Shown in pieces: positions 2,653 to 22,167 of a stretch of 48,840 nt of DNA. A program made the position numbers and the translations under genes. The notes below the pieces were generated by a model. The model did no database searches, had not been told where the DNA came from, and saw only the letters and a list, made by a program, of their open reading frames with translations. Origin of the DNA: Burkholderiaceae bacterium (GTDB lineage: Bacteria > Pseudomonadota > Gammaproteobacteria > Burkholderiales > Burkholderiaceae_C); the NCBI GenBank assembly GCA_016790175.1, contig JAEUPI010000138.1:1-48840 (forward strand), read 5' to 3'. Within the stretch, counting starts at the first letter, position 1. The number at the start of each line of letters is the position of its first letter.

Positions 2653-3587
2653 TGAACACCGAGACTGTCGCAGCCAAGCGGGACTCGCTGCGTGCGCTGA
2701 TCCGAAGCCACAAGCGCTGGGACGCGACCTTCGGGGTGCTCGGCCTGCTGGCGATGATGGTGGGCGTGCTGACGCTGGCGGCGCTCTTCACCGGCATGGC
2801 CATCGACGGCATTCCGCGCCTGTCGGCGGAGTTCTTCACGAGCTTTCCGTCGCGCCGGGCGTCGCAGGCCGGGATCCTCTCGGCCTGGATCGGCTCGGCG
2901 CTGGTGATGCTCGTCACTGCCTTCTTCGCCGTGCCGGTCGGCATCGCCGGTGCGGTGTACCTGGAAGAGTATGCGAAGAAGAACTGGTTGACCGACGTCA
3001 TCGAGATCAACATCACGAACCTGGCCGGCGTGCCGTCGATCGTCTATGGCCTGCTGGCGCTCGGGCTGTTCGTCTACAGCTTCGGGTTCGGCCAGAGCAT
3101 TCTCACGGCCGGCCTGACGCTGGCGCTGCTGATTCTTCCGATCGTGATCGTCACCACGCGCGAAGCGCTGCGCGCGATTCCGCAGCATGTGCGCGAGGGC
3201 GCCTATGCCTGCGGTGCCACGCAGTGGCAGGTGGTGCAGCATCACCTGCTGCCGTACAGCACGCCCGGCATTCTGACTGGCGTGATCATCGCGTTGTCGC
3301 GGGCGATCGGAGAAACGGCGCCGATCATCACCATCGGCGCGCTCACCTTCATCGCCTTCCTGCCGCCGGTGCCTTTCGCCGGCGAGCCGGCCGCCGGGGC
3401 GTTCGACTGGTTGTTCTCGCCGTTCACCGTGATGCCGATCCAGATCTTCAACTGGACCTCGCGGCCCGATCCGGCCTTTCACCAGAACGCCGCGGCCGCG
3501 AGCTTCGTGCTGGTGTTCATGACCTTGGGCATGAACGCGCTGGCGATCTGGCTTCGTTACCGCATGCGCAAGAACATCAAGTGGTAG
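2652..3587 (+). CDS. pstA: Phosphate ABC transporter permease PstA
   Basis: 311 residues, the second membrane subunit of the phosphate importer. About six hydrophobic spans are seen. The coupling motif is [20 protein letters not shown], and [12 protein letters not shown] matches the PstA signature. The start at 2652 shares its A with the pstC stop codon, indicating translational coupling. An in-frame ATG at 2619 lies inside pstC and would add 11 unconserved residues, so it was not used. Confidence 0.95.
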
Positions 3588-3609
3588 CCGCCACCATGGG
3601 ACACATCGA

Positions 3610-4404
3610 ATGACTTCGACGATCACGCTGCCGGCGAAGGCGCCGGCGATGAAGGCCGAATCGAAGGATCTGGACTTCTACTACGGCGACTTCAAGGCGC
3701 TGACGGCCGTGACGATGCCGGTGTACGAGCACAAGGTCACGGCGCTCATCGGGCCCAGCGGCTGCGGCAAGAGCACGTTCCTGCGCTGTTTCAACCGGAT
3801 GCATGACCTCTATCCGGGCCATCGGTACGATGGCAGCATCCACCTGCATCCGGACCAGGTGGACGTGCTTCACCACTCGGTCGATCCGATCGAGGTGCGC
3901 ATGCGCGTGTCGATGGTGTTCCAGAAGCCCAATCCGTTTCCGAAGTCGATCTTCGAGAACGTGGTCTACGGCCTGCGGGTGCGAGGCGAACGCTCGCGCA
4001 GCTATCTGCAGGACAAGTGCGAAGCGGCCCTCAAGGGCGCGGCACTCTGGCTCGAGGTGAAGGACAGACTGGACGAGGTGGCGGTCAACCTCTCGGGCGG
4101 CCAACAGCAGCGACTGTGCATCGCACGCGCGCTCGCCACCGACCCCGAGATCCTGCTGTTCGACGAGCCGACCTCGGCGCTGGATCCGATCGCCACCGGC
4201 AGCATCGAGGAGCTGATCGGCGCCATCAAGGACAAGGTGACCATCCTGATCGTCACGCACAACATGCAGCAGGCGGCGCGGGTGTCGGACTTCGTGGCCT
4301 ACATGTACCTCGGCGAGCTGATCGAGTTCGGCGAGACGCGGGAGATCTTCATGAAGCCCAAGCGCCGGGAGACCGAGGACTACATCACCGGGCGCTTCGG
4401 TTGA
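3610..4404 (+). CDS. pstB: Phosphate ABC transporter ATP-binding protein
   Basis: 264 residues, the cytoplasmic ATPase of the transporter. Seen directly: Walker [10 protein letters not shown] (48-56, Lys54), the PstB-specific CFNRMHDL just after it, signature LSGGQQQR (161-168), Walker [13 protein letters not shown] with Asp185 and Glu186, and the switch His in IVTHNM. Length and motifs are standard. It follows pstA by 22 nt and precedes phoU by 13 nt. Confidence 0.97.
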
Positions 4405-4417
4405 ACGGGAGTAGCCC

Positions 4418-5125
4418 ATGAGCGACAAGCACATCTCCACGCAGTTCGACGCCGAGCTGAGCGACATCTGCACCCGCGTGCTCGAGATGGGGGGCATGGC
4501 CGAGGCGCAGGTCGCGCAGGCGGTCTATGCACTCACCAACTTCAGCGGCGAGACGGCAAGCCAGGTGCTGTCGCGCGAGGAGCAGCTCAACCAGCTCGAG
4601 GTGCAGATCGACCGCGAGCTGTCGACCATCATCGCGCGGCGCCAGCCGACCGCGCGCGATCTGCGCCTGCTGCTGGCCGTGTCGAAGACCATCGCCAATC
4701 TCGAGCGGGTGGGCGACGAGGCCGCCCGTATCGCGCGTACGGTTCAGCGGCTGCTGAATGCTGGGGTGTCCAGCCGCATGCGGCTGCCGGTGGGCGATCT
4801 GGCGTTCGAGACCGACATGGCGGTGCGTCAGCTGCGCAAGGTGCTGGACGCGTTTGCGCGGCTCGATGTCGAGTCGGCGGTCGATGTGCTCAAGCACGAT
4901 GACCAGATCGACCGCGAGTTCGAGGGCCTGATGCGCAAGCTGATCACCTACATGATGGAAGATCCGCGCACGATCTCGGCGAGCATCGATCTCGTGTTCG
5001 TCGCCAAGGCGATCGAACGGGTCGGTGACCATGCCAAGAACGTCGCCGAGGGCATCATCTACATCGTCAAGGGGACCGACGTGCGCCACAATCCGCCCGA
5101 CGCCGTGGCGTCACTGGTTCGCTGA
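4418..5125 (+). CDS. phoU: PhoU, phosphate signalling adaptor
   Basis: 235 residues, all-helical, with two PhoU repeats: residues about 15-100 (motif LERVGDEAARIAR) and 115-220 (motif IERVGDHAKNVAEG). The paired E-R-V-G-D-x-A sequences bind metal in the family. PhoU links transporter state to the PhoR kinase and keeps the regulon off when phosphate is plentiful. It lies between pstB and phoB, so the whole sensing circuit is in one transcript. The ribosome site upstream (GGGAG) is good. Confidence 0.95.
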   Translation: MSDKHISTQFDAELSDICTRVLEMGGMAEAQVAQAVYALTNFSGETASQVLSREEQLNQLEVQIDRELSTIIARRQPTARDLRLLLAVSKTIANLERVGDEAARIARTVQRLLNAGVSSRMRLPVGDLAFETDMAVRQLRKVLDAFARLDVESAVDVLKHDDQIDREFEGLMRKLITYMMEDPRTISASIDLVFVAKAIERVGDHAKNVAEGIIYIVKGTDVRHNPPDAVASLVR

Positions 5126-5139
5126 GGGCCGATCACCCG

Positions 5140-5841
5140 ATGAGTCGCGTTCTGATCGTCGAAGACGAGGTGGCGATCGCCGAGCTGGTCGCAATCAACT
5201 TGCGCCATGCAGGACACGATGTCGTGTTGGCCAGCTCCGCCGAGCAGGCACAGGCCGAGGTGGATGCCGTGTTGCCAGACCTCGTGGTGCTCGACTGGAT
5301 GCTGCCGGGGCAGTCCGGGCTGGCTTTGGCGCGCCGCTGGCGTGCCGACGCCCGCACCAAGGCGCTTCCGGTGATCATGCTGACGGCACGCGGGGAAGAG
5401 GTCGATCGCATTGCCGGCCTGGACGCCGGCGCCGACGACTATCTCGTGAAGCCGTTCTCGACGCAGGAACTGCTGGCGCGCATTCGCGCGGTGCTTCGGC
5501 GAAAGGCGCCGGAGGCGTTGGAGCAGACCGTGCAGATCGCGGGCCTTCGCGTGGAGCCGGACACTCGACGCGTTCTGGCAGACCAGCAGGAGCTGAAGTT
5601 GGGGCCGACGGAATTCAAGCTGCTGCATTTCCTGATGACGCACCCCGAGCGTGTGCACAGCCGAAAACAGCTGCTCGACCGCGTCTGGGGCGACCATGTG
5701 TTCATCGAGGAACGCACGGTCGACGTGCACGTCAAGCGCTTGCGCGACGCGCTGGCGCCGGCCGGGTGTTCCGGACTCATCGAGACCGTGCGTGGCGTGG
5801 GCTATCGGCTGGCGCGACAGCCCGCGGCGATGCCCGCCTGA
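5140..5841 (+). CDS. phoB: Phosphate regulon response regulator PhoB
   Basis: 233 residues. The receiver domain (1-120) has acidic residues EDE near the N-terminus, phospho-acceptor Asp52 in VVLDWMLPG, Thr in MLTARGEE and Lys in DDYLVKPFS. A winged-helix OmpR/PhoB output domain follows (about 130-228), with TEFKLLHFLMTHPERVHSR and VDVHVKRLRDAL. It binds PHO boxes such as those at 511-550. Placing phoB-phoR directly behind pstSCAB-phoU is common in betaproteobacteria, whereas E. coli has them elsewhere. Confidence 0.96.
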   Translation: MSRVLIVEDEVAIAELVAINLRHAGHDVVLASSAEQAQAEVDAVLPDLVVLDWMLPGQSGLALARRWRADARTKALPVIMLTARGEEVDRIAGLDAGADDYLVKPFSTQELLARIRAVLRRKAPEALEQTVQIAGLRVEPDTRRVLADQQELKLGPTEFKLLHFLMTHPERVHSRKQLLDRVWGDHVFIEERTVDVHVKRLRDALAPAGCSGLIETVRGVGYRLARQPAAMPA

Positions 5842-5856
5842 GTCCGCTCGCGGACG

Positions 5857-7161
5857 ATGCACTGGCTCCTGCCACGGATCTTGCTGACTCTGATGGCCGG
5901 TGCCGTGGGCGCCGGCCTGGGCTTGGCGCTGGCCAACTGGACCGACCTGCGCAGCCTCGGCATGCTGCTCGGCGCGGCGACCGGTATCGGGTTGATCGTG
6001 GCCGTGGATGTGCTGCGGGCGCGCCGGCTGTTGAGCTGGCTTCGCGAAGCCCGGACCGATCGCGCCCCGCATCACACGGGATTCTGGGGCGAGATGGGTT
6101 ACCGCGTGGAGCGGGCGCTCCAGGCGCGTGACAAGGATCTGCAAGCGGCAAGGCAGCGCATCGAACAGTTCCTGTCAGCGATCGAGGCATCGCCCAACGG
6201 CGTCGTCATGCTCGATGCGCAGGGACAGCTGTTGTGGTGCAACTCGACGGCGGCAGACCATCTGGGACTCGATCCACTGCGCGATCTGCAGCAACCGATC
6301 ACGAATCTCGTCCGAGCGCCGGAGTTCGTTGCGCATCTTCATGCCGGCACGCCCGAAGAGCCGGTGCAGTTTTCGATTCCGGGGCGGCCCGGGACGCTGT
6401 CGATCATCGTGCGGCCGTACGGCGACGGTCAGCGTCTGCTGCTCACACAGGACGTGACCGAGCGGTTGCGTGTCGACGGCATGCGACGCGACTTTGTGGC
6501 CAACGTTTCACATGAGATCCGCACGCCGCTGACCGTGGTCAGCGGCTTCATAGAAACGATGAGTCAGCTGGAGCCGACCGCCGCCGAACGCAAACGCATG
6601 CTGGAGCTGGTGGCCGAGCAGACACAGCGCATGCGCACGCTCGTCGACGATTTGCTGAGCCTGGCCCAACTCGAGGGCAGCCCTCGGCCATCGGGTGATA
6701 CCTGGGTCGACGTGCATGCATTGATGCAGCGGGTGCTCGCCGATGGCCGGGCGCTGTCGGCGGGACGCCATCGGATCGAGGTCGACGAAGGGCCTGGAGG
6801 TGCCATCGCCGGCAACGAGGCCGAACTGCTCAGCGCATTCGGCAACCTGATGAGCAATGCCGTGCGCTACACGCCGCAAGGCGGGCGGATTGAAATCCTT
6901 TGGCAACGTCGCGGCAACGGCAGCGGCGCATTCGAGGTGCGTGATACCGGTCCCGGCATCTCGGCGGACCATTTGCCTCGGCTCGGCGAACGTTTCTACC
7001 GCGTCGACAGCGGCCGCTCGCGCGCGAGCGGCGGCACCGGGCTCGGCCTGGCCATAACCAAGCATGCCGTGATGCGTCACGGCGGCGAAATGCAGGTGGA
7101 GAGCGTTCTCGGCGAAGGCTCAACCTTCCGCCTTGTGTTTCCTCCAGCGCGCGTGCGATGA
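5857..7161 (+). CDS. phoR: Phosphate regulon sensor histidine kinase PhoR
   Basis: 434 residues. Two N-terminal membrane spans (about 4-24 and 33-50) have almost no periplasmic loop, as in E. coli PhoR, which senses PstSCAB/PhoU rather than phosphate itself. A PAS domain lies at about 105-200. The H-box FVANVSHEIRTPLT has phospho-acceptor His219. The ATPase domain has NLMSNAVRYTPQGG (N box), VRDTGPGIS (G1) and GGTGLGLAI (G2). It phosphorylates PhoB. Its stop is only 7 nt from the convergent gene ending at 7169, with no obvious terminator between them. Confidence 0.95.
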   Translation: MHWLLPRILLTLMAGAVGAGLGLALANWTDLRSLGMLLGAATGIGLIVAVDVLRARRLLSWLREARTDRAPHHTGFWGEMGYRVERALQARDKDLQAARQRIEQFLSAIEASPNGVVMLDAQGQLLWCNSTAADHLGLDPLRDLQQPITNLVRAPEFVAHLHAGTPEEPVQFSIPGRPGTLSIIVRPYGDGQRLLLTQDVTERLRVDGMRRDFVANVSHEIRTPLTVVSGFIETMSQLEPTAAERKRMLELVAEQTQRMRTLVDDLLSLAQLEGSPRPSGDTWVDVHALMQRVLADGRALSAGRHRIEVDEGPGGAIAGNEAELLSAFGNLMSNAVRYTPQGGRIEILWQRRGNGSGAFEVRDTGPGISADHLPRLGERFYRVDSGRSRASGGTGLGLAITKHAVMRHGGEMQVESVLGEGSTFRLVFPPARVR

Positions 7162-7168
7162 GTCCGAC

Positions 7169-8827
7169 TCAGCGGCGGCGATAGACCAGCGTCACGTCGT
7201 CGCGGTCGGTCGGCCGGGCTTCGCTCGCCACCAGGGTCCAGCCTGGCAGCGTCGGGGGACGCGCCACGCGTTTGGTGCTGACCAGCAGCACCTGGCAGGG
7301 GCCGCGTGACGCGCCGTCGGTTGCGTCGACGGTCCATCGGCCGTGCACCTCGAGGGCTGCCACCAGGGCGCGATGCATGCCGGGCGCGGCGACACAACCG
7401 CTTTGGCCCACATGCTTAGCCAGTTGGATCACATGGGCGCGATAGCTGCGGGCGTAGTCGAGCACCGGCAGCCACAGCGTCATCAGCAAGGTCCAGGCCA
7501 GCACCACACCGCCGGCCGGCAGCACCAGGCTGCGCCACAGTGCCGCGCGCTGTCGAGACGTGCGCCAGCGCACCAGCCACAGCCATGCCGCGCTGGCCGT
7601 CACGGCGGCCGTGAGCGCCAACAGTGAAAACTGAGAGACGTACCCCGGCGCGAGCTTCGCAACGTTGGCTGCGGGCTTGGCCGGCACCCCGGTGTGCAGC
7701 GACAGGTAGATCACCCAGATCGCGATCGCTCCCACGGTGAAGAAGAACACCGAGAACCAGTCGATCGCCGAGCTGGTGCTTCGCTGCAAGGTCGGTAGTG
7801 CGAATGCCGCGAGCACCGCGATGCCGGGAATACCGAGCATGAGCGCGCGATCGGATCCGCCCATGGTGACGTTGGCTGCGAGCGCGGTCACGAGAATCGT
7901 CAGCGGCACCGCGATATGGCGCCGCAGCAGCTGAAATCGCCAACGCCACAGCGTCCACAGCGCCAGCGGCCAGGCGGGCCAGAGGAACCACAGCCATTGA
8001 CGCGCAATGGACCCCAATGTGGAAGCATCGAGCGAGTGCGCTGCGCGCCAGGTCCAGGCACCGATCAGTCCGGCAGCCGCGGCGGCCAGCGCCGTCGCAC
8101 CCAGCACCCAGGGCGCGAAACGCCGCACGGGCTCGAAGCTGGACTGACGGCAGATCAATGCGCCGACCAAGCCGATCACGGCGGCCATCGTGGGTGCGCC
8201 GCTGCAGGCCAGCGCCGGCAGCGCGACCAGTATGGCCAACCGCACTCGCAGGCGCCGGTAGGGCGCCGCTGCCAGCGCCCATTGCGCAAGCGCCACCGAC
8301 GCGAGTTGCGCAAGCTCCGGAGTGGTTTCATGTCCGAGTTGAAGCAGGCCCAATGTGGCCACCACCGCCAGGACCGACGCATCGGCCATCGCCCTTGCAT
8401 AGTCCACCGTGCCGGCACCGCCGCCGAAGGCGAACTCCAGCGGTTGCGCCGCTTCGGTGCGGGCGAGCGCGAAGCACGCATACCAGAGGGCTGACAGGGT
8501 CAGCACGAGCAGCAGCGCAAATGCAACGCGTGCTGCGAGCGCCGGATCGAGCCACGGGCTCGTCAGCCAGATGGCTGCGGCGCCCAGCCAGTGCGGCAGC
8601 AATGCCGGGTCTGCCGGCACACCGCCCAGCGTAGGTGTCCACCACGACGACCGGCCTTCGGCCATGGCCAGCATCTGACCAAACGCCGTGAGGTCGGCGT
8701 TCTTCCAGGGATCGCGGCCGAACAGGCCGGGCAGCACATAGGCGGCACACAGCAACAGCAAGGCCTGGCGTGGCAGCGCGCGTGCCGCGTCCTGGGTCAC
8801 CAGTGCAGGGATGGGTGTGACGGTCAC
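7169..8827 (-). CDS. Putative GT-C (ArnT/PMT-like) membrane glycosyltransferase
   Basis: 552 residues, very hydrophobic, with roughly ten to twelve membrane spans and a soluble C-terminal tail of about 100 residues. After the first span it has GLFGRDPWKNADLTAFGQM, the place where GT-C enzymes such as ArnT and PMT carry an acidic catalytic pair in a first periplasmic loop. Here one Asp precedes PWKN and another follows it. By family analogy it would move a sugar from a polyprenyl-phosphate donor to an envelope acceptor, but no substrate can be read from the sequence. The start is a GTG at 8827. It is on the same strand as rpmE2 but separated from it by a terminator, and convergent with phoR. 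Confidence 0.6.
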   Translation of the reverse strand: MTVTPIPALVTQDAARALPRQALLLLCAAYVLPGLFGRDPWKNADLTAFGQMLAMAEGRSSWWTPTLGGVPADPALLPHWLGAAAIWLTSPWLDPALAARVAFALLLVLTLSALWYACFALARTEAAQPLEFAFGGGAGTVDYARAMADASVLAVVATLGLLQLGHETTPELAQLASVALAQWALAAAPYRRLRVRLAILVALPALACSGAPTMAAVIGLVGALICRQSSFEPVRRFAPWVLGATALAAAAAGLIGAWTWRAAHSLDASTLGSIARQWLWFLWPAWPLALWTLWRWRFQLLRRHIAVPLTILVTALAANVTMGGSDRALMLGIPGIAVLAAFALPTLQRSTSSAIDWFSVFFFTVGAIAIWVIYLSLHTGVPAKPAANVAKLAPGYVSQFSLLALTAAVTASAAWLWLVRWRTSRQRAALWRSLVLPAGGVVLAWTLLMTLWLPVLDYARSYRAHVIQLAKHVGQSGCVAAPGMHRALVAALEVHGRWTVDATDGASRGPCQVLLVSTKRVARPPTLPGWTLVASEARPTDRDDVTLVYRRR

Positions 8828-17202: not shown

Positions 17203-19008
17203 ATGCAATCGGCGGACCCTCATCGCGAAGACCGATCCGGTGCCGGCGCGGCGCCGGTGTTTGGTCGTTTTCAGCTGCTGCGCCTGGTCGGCAAGAGCGG
17301 TCGGACGCTGGTCTGGTTCGCCATGGATTCGCGCGGCGATGTGGAATGCATGCTTGTCATGCCGCGCGCCCAGGCGGCGAGCCGCGTCGAACTCGAGCAT
17401 CAGCTGCATGCCGCGCGGCGTGCGATGCGCGTATCACATCCGGGGCTTGCTGTCCCGCTGGAGGTAGGTGAGCAGGACCGATGGCCCTATGCCGTCTATG
17501 CGCGCGGCGAAGCCGTCACCCTGGCCGAGCGCGCAGGCACCAAAGGGCTGACGGCGCAGGAGTCCGCGCTGGCATGCATGCAGGTGCTCGATGCGCTGGC
17601 CTTTGCGCACGAAGCAGGACTCGCACATCGCGACATCCAGTCCTCGATGGTTCTGCTGGACGAGCGCCACGGCGCGCGCCTGATCGGGCTGGAGCTGGCG
17701 CATGTGGCTGCCGAGCGGGCCACGGCCTATGGTGACCAGGCCTTGGGCGCGGCCGCACTGCAGGCGCTGCGCCACGAGGCCGAGCGCGACGTGCTCGGCG
17801 TCGGCCTGCTGTTGCACTACGCGCTGACCGGGCAGTACCCGCTCGATCGAACCGATCTGTCGGCTGTCATCGACACGATGCCTCCGGCCGGCCGCGAGAT
17901 CGTTCGGCTGCCATGGAACAGCGGTCGCACCATCCCCGAGCCGTTGCGGGTGATCGCCAACCGCGCGACCGACCGCCAGCCCCGTCAGCGATACCACAGT
18001 GCGCGCACGCTGGCGCGGGCGCTGGAGGGCTGGTTCCATGCCGATGCGAGCACAGACAGCGGCCCGATCGCACTGCTCCTCGATCGCATGCGGCGAAACG
18101 GTCCGTTGCCGTCGCTGCCCGGTGCCTCGCGCCGCGCGGCGCGTCTGGCCTTGATGGAGCGGGAACGAACCAGCGAGCTCGCCGAAACCGTGCTGCAGGA
18201 TCCTGCCCTCGCGTTCGAGCTGCTGCGCATGATCAACACGGCGCAGACGCGCGGTGCCATGGGTGCGGGCAGCGGCCCGGTGATCACCGTGCGGCGCGCC
18301 ATCGCGCTGCTCGGCCTGGAGGGCGTGCGCCGGGCGGCGCTGTCGCTGCGCGACTGGCCGGGCCCGCTTGACGAAGCGCAGGCTCAGCAGATGCAGCAGG
18401 CCATCGCGCGAGCGCAGCGGGCGGGTCGCATCGCGCAGCTGTTGCGCCCGCCGGGGTACGACGCCGAGGTTGTGCATTTGGTGGCGCTGCTTCAGAACCT
18501 CGGCCGACTCGTGGCCCGCTATCACTTTCCGGACGAGACCGCGCAGGTCTGGCGCCTGATGCAGCAGCACCCGTCCGACGAAGCGGGACAGCCGGACGAG
18601 CCCGGCATGACCGAGGACACGGCCGCGTTCGCCGTCTTCGGCGTGGACATCGAACAGATGGGCACGGCAGTGGCGAGACACTGGGGACTCGACGACAGCG
18701 TGCTGCACATGATCCATCGTTGTTCGCCGTCGGCGCCGGTGCGTGCGCCGGAGACCGACGACGACCAGCTGCGCGTGACCGCCAGCTGCGCCAACGAAGT
18801 CGTCGACGCGATCACGCTGGCGCAGGGGCAGGGCGTGCAGGCGTTGCAGCGCGTGGCCCATCGTTATGCGCGTGCGCTCGGACTCACGCTGCGCGACCTG
18901 CAACAGGTCGCGCAAGGGCAGGCACCGCAGATCTCCGATGACGAAGCGGCGGGGCGCAACGACGCCTCGGACACCGGCGACGCCGACAGCGCGCGGCGCG
19001 TCGCATGA
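17203..19008 (+). CDS. Pseudokinase-HDOD domain protein
   Basis: 601 residues. Residues about 20-275 fold-match a Hanks-type Ser/Thr kinase but lack key residues. The ATP-binding Lys strand reads VECMLVMPR (47-55) with no Lys; the catalytic loop is HRDIQSSM (142-149), where Lys becomes Gln146 and the Mg-binding Asn becomes Met149; DFG becomes Gly-Leu-Glu (162-164). Residues about 300-500 form an HDOD domain whose HD pair reads QN in ALLQNLGRLVA, so no phosphohydrolase activity is expected. The last 4 nt overlap the next gene, which has the same architecture with an intact kinase. I infer a regulatory partner or substrate of that kinase. ATG 17203 has a weak ribosome site; GTG 17155 is an alternative. 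Confidence 0.8.
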   Translation: MQSADPHREDRSGAGAAPVFGRFQLLRLVGKSGRTLVWFAMDSRGDVECMLVMPRAQAASRVELEHQLHAARRAMRVSHPGLAVPLEVGEQDRWPYAVYARGEAVTLAERAGTKGLTAQESALACMQVLDALAFAHEAGLAHRDIQSSMVLLDERHGARLIGLELAHVAAERATAYGDQALGAAALQALRHEAERDVLGVGLLLHYALTGQYPLDRTDLSAVIDTMPPAGREIVRLPWNSGRTIPEPLRVIANRATDRQPRQRYHSARTLARALEGWFHADASTDSGPIALLLDRMRRNGPLPSLPGASRRAARLALMERERTSELAETVLQDPALAFELLRMINTAQTRGAMGAGSGPVITVRRAIALLGLEGVRRAALSLRDWPGPLDEAQAQQMQQAIARAQRAGRIAQLLRPPGYDAEVVHLVALLQNLGRLVARYHFPDETAQVWRLMQQHPSDEAGQPDEPGMTEDTAAFAVFGVDIEQMGTAVARHWGLDDSVLHMIHRCSPSAPVRAPETDDDQLRVTASCANEVVDAITLAQGQGVQALQRVAHRYARALGLTLRDLQQVAQGQAPQISDDEAAGRNDASDTGDADSARRVA

Positions 19009-21380
19009 ACGGCGAGCGCATTGGCCGCTTCATGCTGCGCGAGGTGCTCGGTCGCGGGGCACAAGCGGTGGTGTGGCTCGCGCACGACGAGCGTCTCGAA
19101 CGCGACGTGGCGCTCAAATTGCTATCGCCCGGCGCCACGTCGGACGCCGTGGCCCAGTGGCTGCAGGAGGCGCGAGCGGTCGGTCGCCTGTCGCATCCGA
19201 ACATCGTGCCGGTTTTCGAGGCGGATGCGATCGACGACCGCGCGTACCTGGTGTTCGAGCTCGTGCGCGGTCAGACCCTGGCCGAGGCGCTGCGCCGCGG
19301 CGGCGCGATGTCGCCGCGCCATGCAGTGGAACTGATGCTGGCGGTTCTGGAAGGTCTGCGGACCGCGCATGCCGAAGGCATCGTCCATCGTGACCTGAAG
19401 CCATCGAACATCCTGCTCGACCTCAACGACCGACCGCGGGTGATGGACTTCGGCATCGCGGCCAGGGTCAACGATGCCGAAGCGGGTCGCATCTGCGGCA
19501 CGCCGGGCTACATGTCGCCGGAGGCGGCTCGTGGCGAGACGCCGGCACCGTCGATGGACCTGTTCGCTGCCGGCATGATCCTGGCCGAGCTGCTGACCGG
19601 CACTCGACTGCTGCGCGAACGCGATCCCTTCGTCGCATTGCGCCGCGTCATCGACGAGGACATGCGGCTGCCCGACAGCGCCGAGGTCGACGACGCGCTG
19701 CGTTCGATCGTGCATCGCGCGCTGGCGCGCGAGCCGGGGCAACGGTTTGCCGACGTCGGCAGCATGATCGAGGCCCTGCAGGGCTGGCTCGGAGCAGGCG
19801 AAACATCCACGCAGGCTGCGGCTGGCGACGCGACGCTCGAGTTCCTGCTGCGCCGCATGCGGCAGCGCAGCGACTTCCCGGCGCTGTCGGACGCGGTGCT
19901 GCGCATCCAGCGGGTCGCGAGCTCGGAGAGCGAGAACCTCAACAGCCTGGCCGGCGAGATCCTGAAGGACGTGGCGCTGACGAACAAGCTGCTGCGCCTG
20001 GTGAACAGCGCGCAGTTCCGCCATGCCGGTGGCGGCACGATCTCCACCGTGTCGCGGGCCATTGCGCTGGTGGGTTTCGCCGGCGTGCGAAACCAGGCCT
20101 TGTCGCTCGTTCTGCTCGAACACATGCAGGACAAGCAGCACGCGGCGCAGCTGAAGGAACGGTACCTCTGCGCCTTGCTGGCCGGGCAGGTGGCGAGCGA
20201 CATGGCCCTGGCCACGCGCGAAAGCGAAGAAGCCTATCTGGGCGCGATGATGCACAACCTCGGTCGGATGCTCACCGAGTTCTACCTGCCCGACGATGCC
20301 CGGGCCATCCGCGACGAGATGCGCCCTCACGCCGCCAGGGGCACATCGGCGATCACGGCCGAGCAAGCCTCCATGCGCGTTCTGGGCATCGGATTCCAGG
20401 AGTTGGGGATCGGCGCCGCGAAGGCCTGGGGCTTGCCTGAATCGCTGCAGCGCACGATGCGCGCACCGGAGGGGGAGCCACCCGGCCGCCGCGTCGAGCA
20501 GACCGCCGAGCGCCTGCGTTGGGTCGCCAGGGTGGCCAACGAGGTGGCCGAATCCGTCCTGTCCACCGACCCGCAGATGCTCGAGACCCGCCTCGGGCAG
20601 ATCGAGCAGCGATTCGGCGCGGCGCTCGGTCTGAGCACCGGTGAGCTCAAGAAGGCGGTCGATGGTGCGCGCCTCAAACTCGGCGAGTTCACCCGCGCCA
20701 CGGGGCTGGTGCTGCCGCGCGGGTCCGAGGCCGAGCGGCTCGTGAAGACGTTGGCCTCGGTGCCCGTCGAATCCGCCAAGCTCCTGGATCTGTCGCTGCC
20801 CACTCTGCCGGGTTCGTCGGCCCGAATCCACGTTGCGCCGGCAATGAACGCCCAGGCCGGCGAGCTCCTGACGGCCGGCATCCAGGACATCACGAACACG
20901 CTGGCCGAGGAGTCGTTCAAGCTGAACGAGGTGTTGCGCATGGTGCTGGAGACGATGTTTCGCGCGCTGGCCTTCCGCCGCATCGTGCTGTGTCTTCGCG
21001 ACGCGCGTGCCCAGACGCTTACCGGTCGATTCGGGCTGGGCGAGCAGGTCGAGGCCTTCGCACGCCAGTTCTGCATTCCCGTGGGTTCGCATGCCCAGGG
21101 CACACCCGACTTGCTTGCCGCCGTCTGTCAGAAGGGCGCCGACATGCAGGTCGTCGATGCCGGTGCACAGAACGTCGTGCCGCGCTTGCCTGCCTGGCTG
21201 AGGCCGCAGGCAGCCGGGCTGTCGTTCCTGCTGCTGCCGCTCACGATGAAGCGTGCGCCTTTCGGGCTGATCTATGCCGATTGCGAGCGGGGTGGCGGAC
21301 TGCCCATCGGGGAGCGAGAGCTGTCGCTGCTGCGCACGCTGCGGAACCAGGCCGTGATGGCCTTCCGCGCCGCGGGTTGA
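19005..21380 (+). CDS. Ser/Thr protein kinase with HDOD and GAF domains
   Basis: 791 residues. The N-terminal Hanks kinase (about 8-265) is complete: Gly loop GRGAQAVVWLA, Lys38 in VALKLL, HRDLKPSN (128-135), DFG from Asp148, and activation segment end GTPGYMSPE. An HDOD domain follows (about 280-480), containing MMHNLGRMLTEFYLP where HD has become HN. A C-terminal GAF domain spans about 620-790 (RALAFRRIVLCLRDAR to LLPLTMKRAPFGLIYADCE). No membrane span is seen, so it should be a cytoplasmic sensor-kinase. The start ATG overlaps the previous stop (ATGA at 19005). GAF ligand and kinase targets cannot be read from sequence; the adjacent pseudokinase is the obvious candidate partner. Confidence 0.85.
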   Translation: MNGERIGRFMLREVLGRGAQAVVWLAHDERLERDVALKLLSPGATSDAVAQWLQEARAVGRLSHPNIVPVFEADAIDDRAYLVFELVRGQTLAEALRRGGAMSPRHAVELMLAVLEGLRTAHAEGIVHRDLKPSNILLDLNDRPRVMDFGIAARVNDAEAGRICGTPGYMSPEAARGETPAPSMDLFAAGMILAELLTGTRLLRERDPFVALRRVIDEDMRLPDSAEVDDALRSIVHRALAREPGQRFADVGSMIEALQGWLGAGETSTQAAAGDATLEFLLRRMRQRSDFPALSDAVLRIQRVASSESENLNSLAGEILKDVALTNKLLRLVNSAQFRHAGGGTISTVSRAIALVGFAGVRNQALSLVLLEHMQDKQHAAQLKERYLCALLAGQVASDMALATRESEEAYLGAMMHNLGRMLTEFYLPDDARAIRDEMRPHAARGTSAITAEQASMRVLGIGFQELGIGAAKAWGLPESLQRTMRAPEGEPPGRRVEQTAERLRWVARVANEVAESVLSTDPQMLETRLGQIEQRFGAALGLSTGELKKAVDGARLKLGEFTRATGLVLPRGSEAERLVKTLASVPVESAKLLDLSLPTLPGSSARIHVAPAMNAQAGELLTAGIQDITNTLAEESFKLNEVLRMVLETMFRALAFRRIVLCLRDARAQTLTGRFGLGEQVEAFARQFCIPVGSHAQGTPDLLAAVCQKGADMQVVDAGAQNVVPRLPAWLRPQAAGLSFLLLPLTMKRAPFGLIYADCERGGGLPIGERELSLLRTLRNQAVMAFRAAG

Positions 21381-21471: not shown

Positions 21472-21840
21472 TCACTTCTTGGGAGCGGCTTCGCCGGCGG
21501 GCAGCGTGGTGCCTTCCTTCACAGCCTTCTTGGTGTCGGCCTTGACGTCGGCACGGGCCTTCTCGCCCTTGGGCGCCTTCTCGGCGGGCTTGCCTTCGCC
21601 GGCCTTGGTTTCGCCGGCCTTGACAGCCGTCTTGGTCTCGGCCTTGACGTCGGCGCGGGCCTTTTCGGACTTCGCCGCGGGCGCGGTCGGGGAACCCTCG
21701 CCAGCCTTGGTCTGACCGGCCTTGACGGCGGCCTTGGTTTCTTCCTTCACTTCAGCGCGCGACTTGTCTTGCGCGAACGCGCCTTGCGACAGCATGGCGA
21801 CGGCGGCAGCGACCAGCGAGAGAGCGATCTTCGTCTTCAT
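21472..21840 (-). CDS. Small secreted Lys/Ala/Glu-rich repeat protein
   Basis: 122 residues. A clear Sec signal peptide (1-23, cleavage after AFA) is followed by a 99-residue mature part made of three imperfect repeats of about 30-34 residues built on KARADVKAETKTAVKAGETK. The mature part has no Cys, His or aromatic residues and is strongly charged, so it is probably a disordered or single-helix periplasmic or extracellular protein. The ribosome site AGGAG at 21847-21851 fits the ATG. No family was recognised with confidence; short alanine/lysine-rich secreted proteins of this kind are frequent in Burkholderiales. It stands alone on its strand, with no clear promoter hexamers upstream. Confidence 0.75.
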   Translation of the reverse strand: MKTKIALSLVAAAVAMLSQGAFAQDKSRAEVKEETKAAVKAGQTKAGEGSPTAPAAKSEKARADVKAETKTAVKAGETKAGEGKPAEKAPKGEKARADVKADTKKAVKEGTTLPAGEAAPKK

Positions 21841-22068
21841 ATAGGACTCCTAGGTGGATACGAGGGAACGGACACTACGCGATGGAGCCACTACGCTCGG
21901 ACCATGAACCCTCATCTGGTCTAAACGCCTTCGTGGCAGATCCGCCGAAGGGAGCGAGGCCTCAATCAGGCATCTTAACGTTGCACTCCGGGCGGCGTTG
22001 ACCTCCGGACGATGGCGCGGCTGTCGGCTGGTGTCAAAGCGTTGCGCCGACGCCGCATTCGAACACAG
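21841..22068. other. Non-coding stretch between repeat protein and 4.5S RNA
   Basis: These 228 bases carry the leader of the minus-strand repeat protein gene and the downstream side of ffs. TTGACA is present on the minus strand (22032-22037) but without a matching -10 at normal spacing. I see no other gene. Confidence 0.5.
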
Positions 22069-22167
22069 GTGACGAGCCTTGCCCTCGGCACTGGTCGAAA
22101 CGGTTAGGGCTGCTTGGTTCCCCACCTGACCCGGTTGGCCGCGCTTCCATGCGAGGAGGCCCGTCAC
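22069..22167 (-). ncRNA. ffs: 4.5S RNA of the signal recognition particle
   Basis: On the minus strand the domain IV core reads GGGTCAGGTGGGGAACC followed by AAGCAGCC, matching the universal SRP core (symmetric loop, GGAA tetraloop, AGCAGCC). The closing pairs are GG/CC where E. coli has CC/GG, a compensated swap. The ends pair: 5' GTGACG (22162-22167) with 3' CGTCAC (22069-22074), continued by GCC with GGC. The hairpin is 99 nt, normal for betaproteobacteria. With Ffh it targets nascent membrane proteins. The ends were set by pairing and are accurate to a few bases. Confidence 0.93.

Follow-up and report, generated by a model that had tools for sequence, protein, structure and literature searches.

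Is a pseudokinase kept to control its catalytically intact twin, or does it have a function of its own? The question is raised by two adjoining genes, here called P1 and P2, in a contig of a Burkholderiaceae bacterium (GTDB family Burkholderiaceae_C; GenBank assembly GCA_016790175.1, contig JAEUPI010000138.1, positions 1 to 48,840 of the forward strand; this whole stretch of 48,840 nucleotides is referred to as the window). P1 encodes a putative pseudokinase-HDOD protein and P2 a kinase-HDOD-GAF protein, and a sequence-only reading of the window had proposed that they form a dedicated pair in which P1 allosterically switches P2. Live and dead paralogues adjoin in many culturable Burkholderiales and the dead one stands alone in relatives, which makes the general question approachable. 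We find that P1 is a real, conserved pseudokinase-HDOD paralogue beside an active-looking twin; an exclusive allosteric pair is not established. A possible wider picture, in which we place distinctly less than even confidence, is a family-wide pseudokinase-HDOD lineage with a single origin from a kinase-HDOD-GAF gene, where the live twin would sense and phosphorylate and the dead copy would serve as an HDOD output adaptor that other kinases could reuse after loss of the twin.

Residue losses in P1 and an intact-looking P2

Both frames are open throughout (17203-19008 and 19005-21380) and overlap by 4 bp; the two proteins share 31% identity across 569 columns and each combines a kinase fold with an HDOD domain, in agreement with the overlap and common architecture reported earlier (Table 1). 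In Pfam scans P2 matched Pkinase (162.5 bits), HDOD (108.5 bits; cut-off 22.9) and, marginally, GAF (24.2 bits; cut-off 22.4), with no transmembrane or PASTA part, and P1 matched HDOD (67.8 bits; cut-off 22.9) and weakly Pkinase (35.0 bits; cut-off 31.7). Of the 11 Pkinase matches in the host genome (82.3% complete, 283 contigs), that of P1 scores lowest; the genome also holds four PP2C phosphatase matches and six HDOD matches, five of them above the cut-off.

P1 has V52 at the position of the VAIK lysine, M149 at HRD+5 and G162-L163-E164 in place of DFG, precisely the losses named by the sequence-only reading, and it keeps H142-x-D144 and Q146. These positions were followed in two sets of relatives. 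A search with the P1 sequence alone gave no matches; an alignment query gave 300 relatives, of which the best 80 (the best-80 set, biased to close relatives) come from Rubrivivax, Ideonella, Aquabacterium, Rhizobacter, Piscinibacter, Aquincola and other Burkholderiales. The locus set comprises 60 fetched stretches plus the window (61 loci), with frames classed by their better match, P1 or P2; it yielded 49 unbroken P1 rows, 30 paired with P2 and 19 lone, after two fragments of a broken P1 were dropped. These fragments come from L087 (G077, a single-contig genome), where P1 is split over two frames, 3524-7717 and 3927-5513, with P2 adjoining. The VAIK Lys, the HRD+5 Asn and the DFG Asp each occur in 0/80 P1 sequences of the best-80 set, where Glu occupies the alpha-C Glu column in 4/80, and VAIK Lys and DFG Asp are missing in 49/49 unbroken rows. 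A possible exception is the P1 of G391 (L289), in which an Asp aligns at the DFG place inside a poorly aligned LDAGSA stretch. No P1 homologue with intact kinase residues was seen among the 49 rows or in the best-80 set; such homologues had been named as evidence against a dedicated pair, which on this count stands. The alignment query also produced 50 pattern matches in viral contigs, none of which was confirmed as P1, and among plasmids 43 records matched, none covering more than 80% of the query.

The fold is kept. The AlphaFold2 model of P1 (mean predicted local distance difference test score, pLDDT, 87.9; predicted template modelling score, pTM, 0.64) is confident as a kinase fold plus HDOD, with the pseudokinase domain mostly above 90 pLDDT and with Hanks kinases and the pseudokinase domain of Rv3910 as structural matches. 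The alignment gives this domain invariant positions of its own, which include W38, R76, H79-P80, H136, H142 and D144. By its modelled kinase fold and the loss of ATP, catalytic and metal motifs, P1 is a predicted bacterial pseudokinase. We also considered a decaying pseudogene, which is ruled out by the open frames, the invariant positions and the confident fold.

The retained catalytic loop raises the alternative that P1 is a different enzyme, in which H-x-D and Gln would help to bind or transfer a nucleotide in an atypical way, as has been proposed for the DLHK pseudokinases and shown for SelO and SidJ. H142 and D144 are present in 80/80 sequences of the best-80 set and Q146 in 77/80, and some bacterial pseudokinases have acquired other activities, according to the accessible part of a 2025 review (PMC12599244). 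We nevertheless regard this alternative as very improbable: the metal-binding Asp/Asn and the beta-3 Lys are absent in the same set, the catalytic-loop Asp is Ser in L074, and H-x-D is gone in the most divergent lone P1s (G102 and G205; L290 and L291; genus g98).

P2 carries K38, E55, H128-R129-D130, N135 and D148-F149-G150, and the VAIK Lys, alpha-C Glu, HRD Asp, Asn and DFG Asp are retained in 64/64 P2 frames longer than 700 amino acids (nine shorter frames were left out). PknB is the best solved-structure match of its kinase domain (E 7e-63; the match of P1 to PknB is weaker, E 1e-27), and the AlphaFold2 model has a mean pLDDT of 81.5 and a pTM of 0.43. The residue pattern is that of an active Hanks-type kinase, and activity is predicted; the earlier statement that P2 keeps every catalytic residue and adds a GAF domain is upheld, with a marginal Pfam match for GAF. 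At the metal dyad of HD-type phosphohydrolases (the dyad alone was tested), P1 has Q431-N432 and P2 has H417-N418, as the sequence-only reading had correctly recorded. As a clue, this degeneracy carries no weight: HDOD domains usually show it, and few P2 frames have His at the first position (H in 6/64, Q in 43/64). Q431 is found in 80/80 P1 sequences of the best-80 set.

Table 1 Coordinates of the P1-P2 gene pair in the window and the basis of each assignment
Feature	Position	Strand	Basis
P1, putative pseudokinase-HDOD protein, 601 aa	17203..19008	+	translation, Pfam, homologues, AlphaFold2 model
P1 predicted pseudokinase domain, ~residues 20-280	17260..18042	+	residue alignments; fold match to Hanks kinases and Rv3910 pseudokinase domain
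P1 HDOD domain, ~residues 288-572	18064..18918	+	
P2, kinase-HDOD-GAF protein, 791 aa, catalytic residues complete	19005..21380	+	translation, Pfam, AlphaFold2 model
P2 protein kinase domain, ~residues 7-262	19023..19790	+	Pfam, residue alignments; PknB is top solved-structure sequence match
P2 HDOD domain, ~residues 275-560	19827..20684	+	Pfam match 292-487
P2 GAF-like domain, ~residues 614-790	20844..21374	+	marginal Pfam match 640-786; alpha/beta fold in model
ATGA, overlap of P1 stop and P2 start, 4 bp	19005..19008	+	sequence

Origin of P1 and kinase loss elsewhere in the family

P1 was placed among its relatives in two trees, both from a quick search without bootstrap and with support given by the Shimodaira-Hasegawa-like approximate likelihood ratio test (SH-aLRT). 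The 49 P1 rows form one clade in the 92-row tree (SH-aLRT 100). In the 80-row tree, P1, the P2 of the same family and two degenerate copies of genus g145 (34 rows together) are split from 46 rows that belong to other families of Burkholderiales (SH-aLRT 100), and the P1 stem branch is long, at 1.11 changes per column. In other families, 33/33 P2-type rows and 12 kinase-HDOD rows retain Lys, catalytic Asp, Asn and DFG Asp. Since P1 is a single clade inside the family's own P2 lineage and these residues are intact in other families, the trees indicate that P1 arose once, by duplication within that lineage, with a long stem branch thereafter, and the earlier suggestion of a duplication in which one copy turned pseudokinase is borne out. 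The g145 copies join P1 at support 95, a grouping that may be an artefact because their branches are long. A placement of P1 as sister of intact GAF-less kinase-HDOD proteins of other families was rejected, as those 12 rows form a separate group away from P1.

Kinase loss has also occurred within the P2 class. At least 14 fetched P2-class frames have a damaged or missing kinase domain and keep HDOD-GAF (the second copies of L100 and L101, L113, L119, L274-L281, L284 and L292), with HRD to HRN as the sole kinase change in L284; several P2-class relatives have no kinase domain at all, whereas the P1 rows seen all keep theirs. In genus g145 (L100:6606-8921, L101:1979-4306), an intact P2 is followed downstream by a degenerate kinase-HDOD-GAF copy, which makes another tandem of live and dead genes. 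In a different family, the second tandem copy at L232:3336-5132 has HGD and NFG and is an early stage of kinase loss, and tandem kinase-HDOD-GAF genes with residues intact in both copies occur in L106, L230 and L231 of other Burkholderiales families. Among the kinase-degenerate copies seen, P1 is the sole broad, conserved clade.

Because the kinase is lost and HDOD-GAF kept in these P2-class frames, HDOD seems to be the family's indispensable part. This agrees with an explanation in which P1 works as an HDOD regulator in its own right, the kinase domain is a stable but passive remnant, and the proximity to P2 is the outcome of tandem duplication only. Lone P1 survives, and in 64 genomes with both genes the P1 HDOD domain is better conserved than the pseudokinase domain (0.627 against 0.556; position-bootstrap interval 0.024-0.117); for P2 the order is kinase (0.638), HDOD (0.565) and GAF (0.503), with a kinase-HDOD bootstrap interval of 0.022-0.123. 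We consider this explanation quite unlikely, as invariant positions of its own and a confident fold mark the pseudokinase domain, which is constrained equally with HDOD in lone P1 (see below) and has never been discarded in the P1 rows seen, whereas P2-class relatives discarded the kinase domain outright.

Association of P1 with P2 and survival of lone P1

Spacing was measured, with starts set by script, for 67 P1-P2 pairs among the best-80 set (69 have both genes; two with a split P2 were excluded). Eighteen pairs overlap, 17 of them by 4 nucleotides, 34 lie 0-30 nucleotides apart, 12 at 31-100 and three at more than 100, and thus 52/67 overlap or are separated by 30 nucleotides or less. P1 or P2 has at least one recognised neighbour among addA, addB, dnaX and recR in 29/55 in-family fetched stretches and in 58/80 of the best-80 set.

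Across 399 genomes of the family, with P1 called by best E-value and P2 by E-values up to 1e-160, 101 genomes have both genes, 35 P1 only, 38 full P2 only and 225 neither (corrected after a recheck in which at most 28 or 33 candidates were scored per genome). The two genes are associated, but not obligately. Its odds ratio, 17.6, was computed on the earlier tally (100, 34, 38 and 227 in the same order), for which a looser P2 limit of 1e-90 gave 104, 30, 53 and 212. These counts ignore relatedness among genomes, and those of P1 may be low, as weak P1 matches apart from G102 and G205 were not individually inspected. G102 and G205, with their divergent P1, are counted as P1 only, and G409, where the P2 start lies at the contig end, is counted with both. 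Five P1-only genomes, all of genus g50, carry an HDOD-GAF protein closely related to P2 (45-58% identity), with a match that starts past the kinase domain; the sequence of one of these, L280, was read directly. Rubrivivax gelatinosus DSM 1709 (L154) has both genes, and Aquincola tertiaricarbonis (L170) and Ideonella oryzae (L179) have P1 only. On the 49 P1 rows, at least nine changes between the paired and lone states are needed.

The operon-like coupling and the co-occurrence favour the proposal that P1 acts as a switch dedicated to the allosteric control of P2, comparable to STRAD for LKB1 or to HER3, with its kinase fold binding the P2 kinase domain and turning activity on or off. A further point in its favour comes from PknB, for which the portion of the literature consulted describes a back-to-back dimer with a proposed allosteric role (PMC6333020). 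The interface positions R10, L33 and D76 of PknB align with R8, L31 and E/D72 of P2, which are present in 64/64 frames, and two of the three positions are kept in P1 (R22 in 76/80 and E/D87 in 79/80 of the best-80 set) but the central Leu is lost. The alignment suggests that a P2 homodimer is possible and leaves room for a mixed P1-P2 dimer, nothing beyond. As a whole we judge the switch unlikely. P2 occurs without P1 in 38 genomes and therefore does not need it, and lone P1 arose or reverted in the changes, at least nine, counted above. The coupling and co-occurrence of the proposed pair stand; its exclusivity does not, also because three genomes from the same genus as the window (G001, G004 and G005) have a lone P1 in the addA-dnaX locus, with addA, P1 and dnaX present and P2 absent.

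If the pseudokinase domain served solely to bind P2, it would be expected to drift faster than HDOD after P2 loss. The pseudokinase/HDOD divergence ratio is 1.024 in the 30 paired and 1.016 in the 19 lone P1 rows (p 0.88), and the P1 pseudokinase domain is not selectively relaxed where P2 has been lost, which argues against the switch. The catalytic-loop Gln, missing in 8/19 lone vs 2/30 paired P1 rows, would speak for it, but the eight Gln-less lone rows and L103, one of the two paired exceptions, make up one weakly supported 9-row group, so that the losses in lone rows are not independent. Relative to DnaX, lone P1 was not found to evolve faster (mean residual -2.4, p 0.26; 28 lone vs 39 paired genomes, after exclusion of G285, which has no DnaX match, and of five genomes in which the stretches are partial); by genus, lone P1 of g69, g75 and g77 is faster than DnaX predicts, and that of other genera is not.

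A proposed division of labour, related systems and neighbouring features

The reading that we tentatively prefer, at a little under even confidence, is a division of labour in which P2 would provide catalysis and the GAF sensor, and P1 would be a non-catalytic HDOD adaptor with a kinase fold for docking, usually but not exclusively with P2. A kinase-HDOD-GAF gene of Burkholderiales would have been duplicated in the ancestor of the family; P2 would have retained the kinase residues and the GAF sensor, and P1 would have shed GAF and the phosphotransfer residues, its kinase fold becoming a protein-docking module. A signal at the P2 GAF domain may lead P2 to autophosphorylate and then to phosphorylate either P1 or a client bound to P1, and the HDOD domain of P1 would relay the output, perhaps to motility or c-di-GMP (cyclic di-GMP) control by analogy with other HDOD proteins. 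In favour of this scheme are the residue losses of P1 set against the complete catalytic residues of P2, the confident P1 fold, the single origin of P1 within the P2 lineage, the coupling and co-occurrence of the genes, the retained PknB-type interface positions and the opposite conservation of the two proteins (HDOD above pseudokinase in P1, kinase above HDOD in P2, both bootstrap intervals excluding zero). The sequences themselves show the residue losses with their conservation, the single origin, the coupling, the co-occurrence and the persistence of lone P1; the inactivity of P1, its contact with P2, the direction of signalling and the output are what we infer. Since P1 often persists in the absence of P2, it must on this reading be usable by other kinases or clients. 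If the wider picture given at the outset is true, lone P1s amount to a set of natural experiments in partner loss, on how a pseudokinase outlives its kinase.

Several points weigh against the division of labour. Among 136 P1-bearing genomes, 35 have no full P2, and 26 of these are at least 95% complete; P2 is therefore not the sole partner of P1. Together with the 38 genomes that hold full P2 without P1, these genomes count against a dedicated pair by the second condition of the sequence-only reading, namely common occurrence of the genes apart. That the most divergent lone P1s have lost even H-x-D belongs here as well. P1 and P2 distance matrices have a partial correlation of 0.49 on dnaX (0/2000 permutations), but in a mirror-tree comparison of 17 loci the P1-P2 partial r of 0.51 is matched by the control pair dnaX-recR at 0.50, and because the control scores alike, coevolution is not established. 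Finally, the suggested output draws solely on other HDOD proteins, of which, in the excerpts available of each source, SadB binds c-di-GMP (PMC6543031), PSPTO_4229 influences swimming (PMC11813219) and I2285 influences motility (PMC9040570).

Bacterial pseudokinases are described as largely unexplored by experiment in the accessible part of the 2025 review (O'Boyle and others, PMC12599244), which does not mention HDOD there. No HDOD protein with a kinase or pseudokinase domain was found in the parts consulted of the open-licence literature (subscription papers were mostly outside this scope), which fits the earlier view of an undescribed module. MmoQ, SadB, GsmR and PSPTO_4229 have the HDOD fold and Pfam match in common with P1 and P2, and none has a kinase fold by the descriptions at hand. 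The fold match of P1, the pseudokinase domain of MviN (Rv3910) of Mycobacterium tuberculosis, belongs to family ActPs3, in which the catalytic loop is replaced (Lsidhpsr in Table 1 of PMC12599244, as excerpted), whereas P1 has H-x-D throughout the best-80 set. Like P1, the proteobacterial DLHK (Pseudomonas aeruginosa Q9I0B5) has lost the ATP and DFG motifs and kept the catalytic-loop Asp; unlike P1, with Asn at HRD+5 in 0/80, it keeps Asn at the end of the loop, and it is mostly linked to a DEAD-like helicase or DNA2 instead of HDOD, again by the review's accessible part (PMC12599244). CP1 pseudokinases are linked to a COG3899 ATPase, and the P1 Pfam scan gave only Pkinase and HDOD above cut-off (the COG library was not searched). 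PknB-type Hanks kinases resemble the P2 kinase domain and, more weakly, P1, but P2 adds HDOD and GAF and P1 is missing the catalytic residues named above. The eukaryotic STRAD-LKB1 system likewise consists of paralogous dead and live kinases, and STRAD structures 2wtk_B and 8vsu_B are among the Foldseek matches; unlike STRAD-LKB1, P1 is often retained without P2, and any binding or activation of P2 by P1 is putative.

Directly downstream of P2, positions 21472-21840 of the minus strand encode a small protein rich in Lys and Ala, which begins with a signal-like sequence and contains KARADVKAETK-type repeat units. Between the P1-P2 pair and dnaX, a small bacterial signal recognition particle (SRP) RNA (RF00169, 66.4 bits) lies at 22068-22165 on the minus strand.

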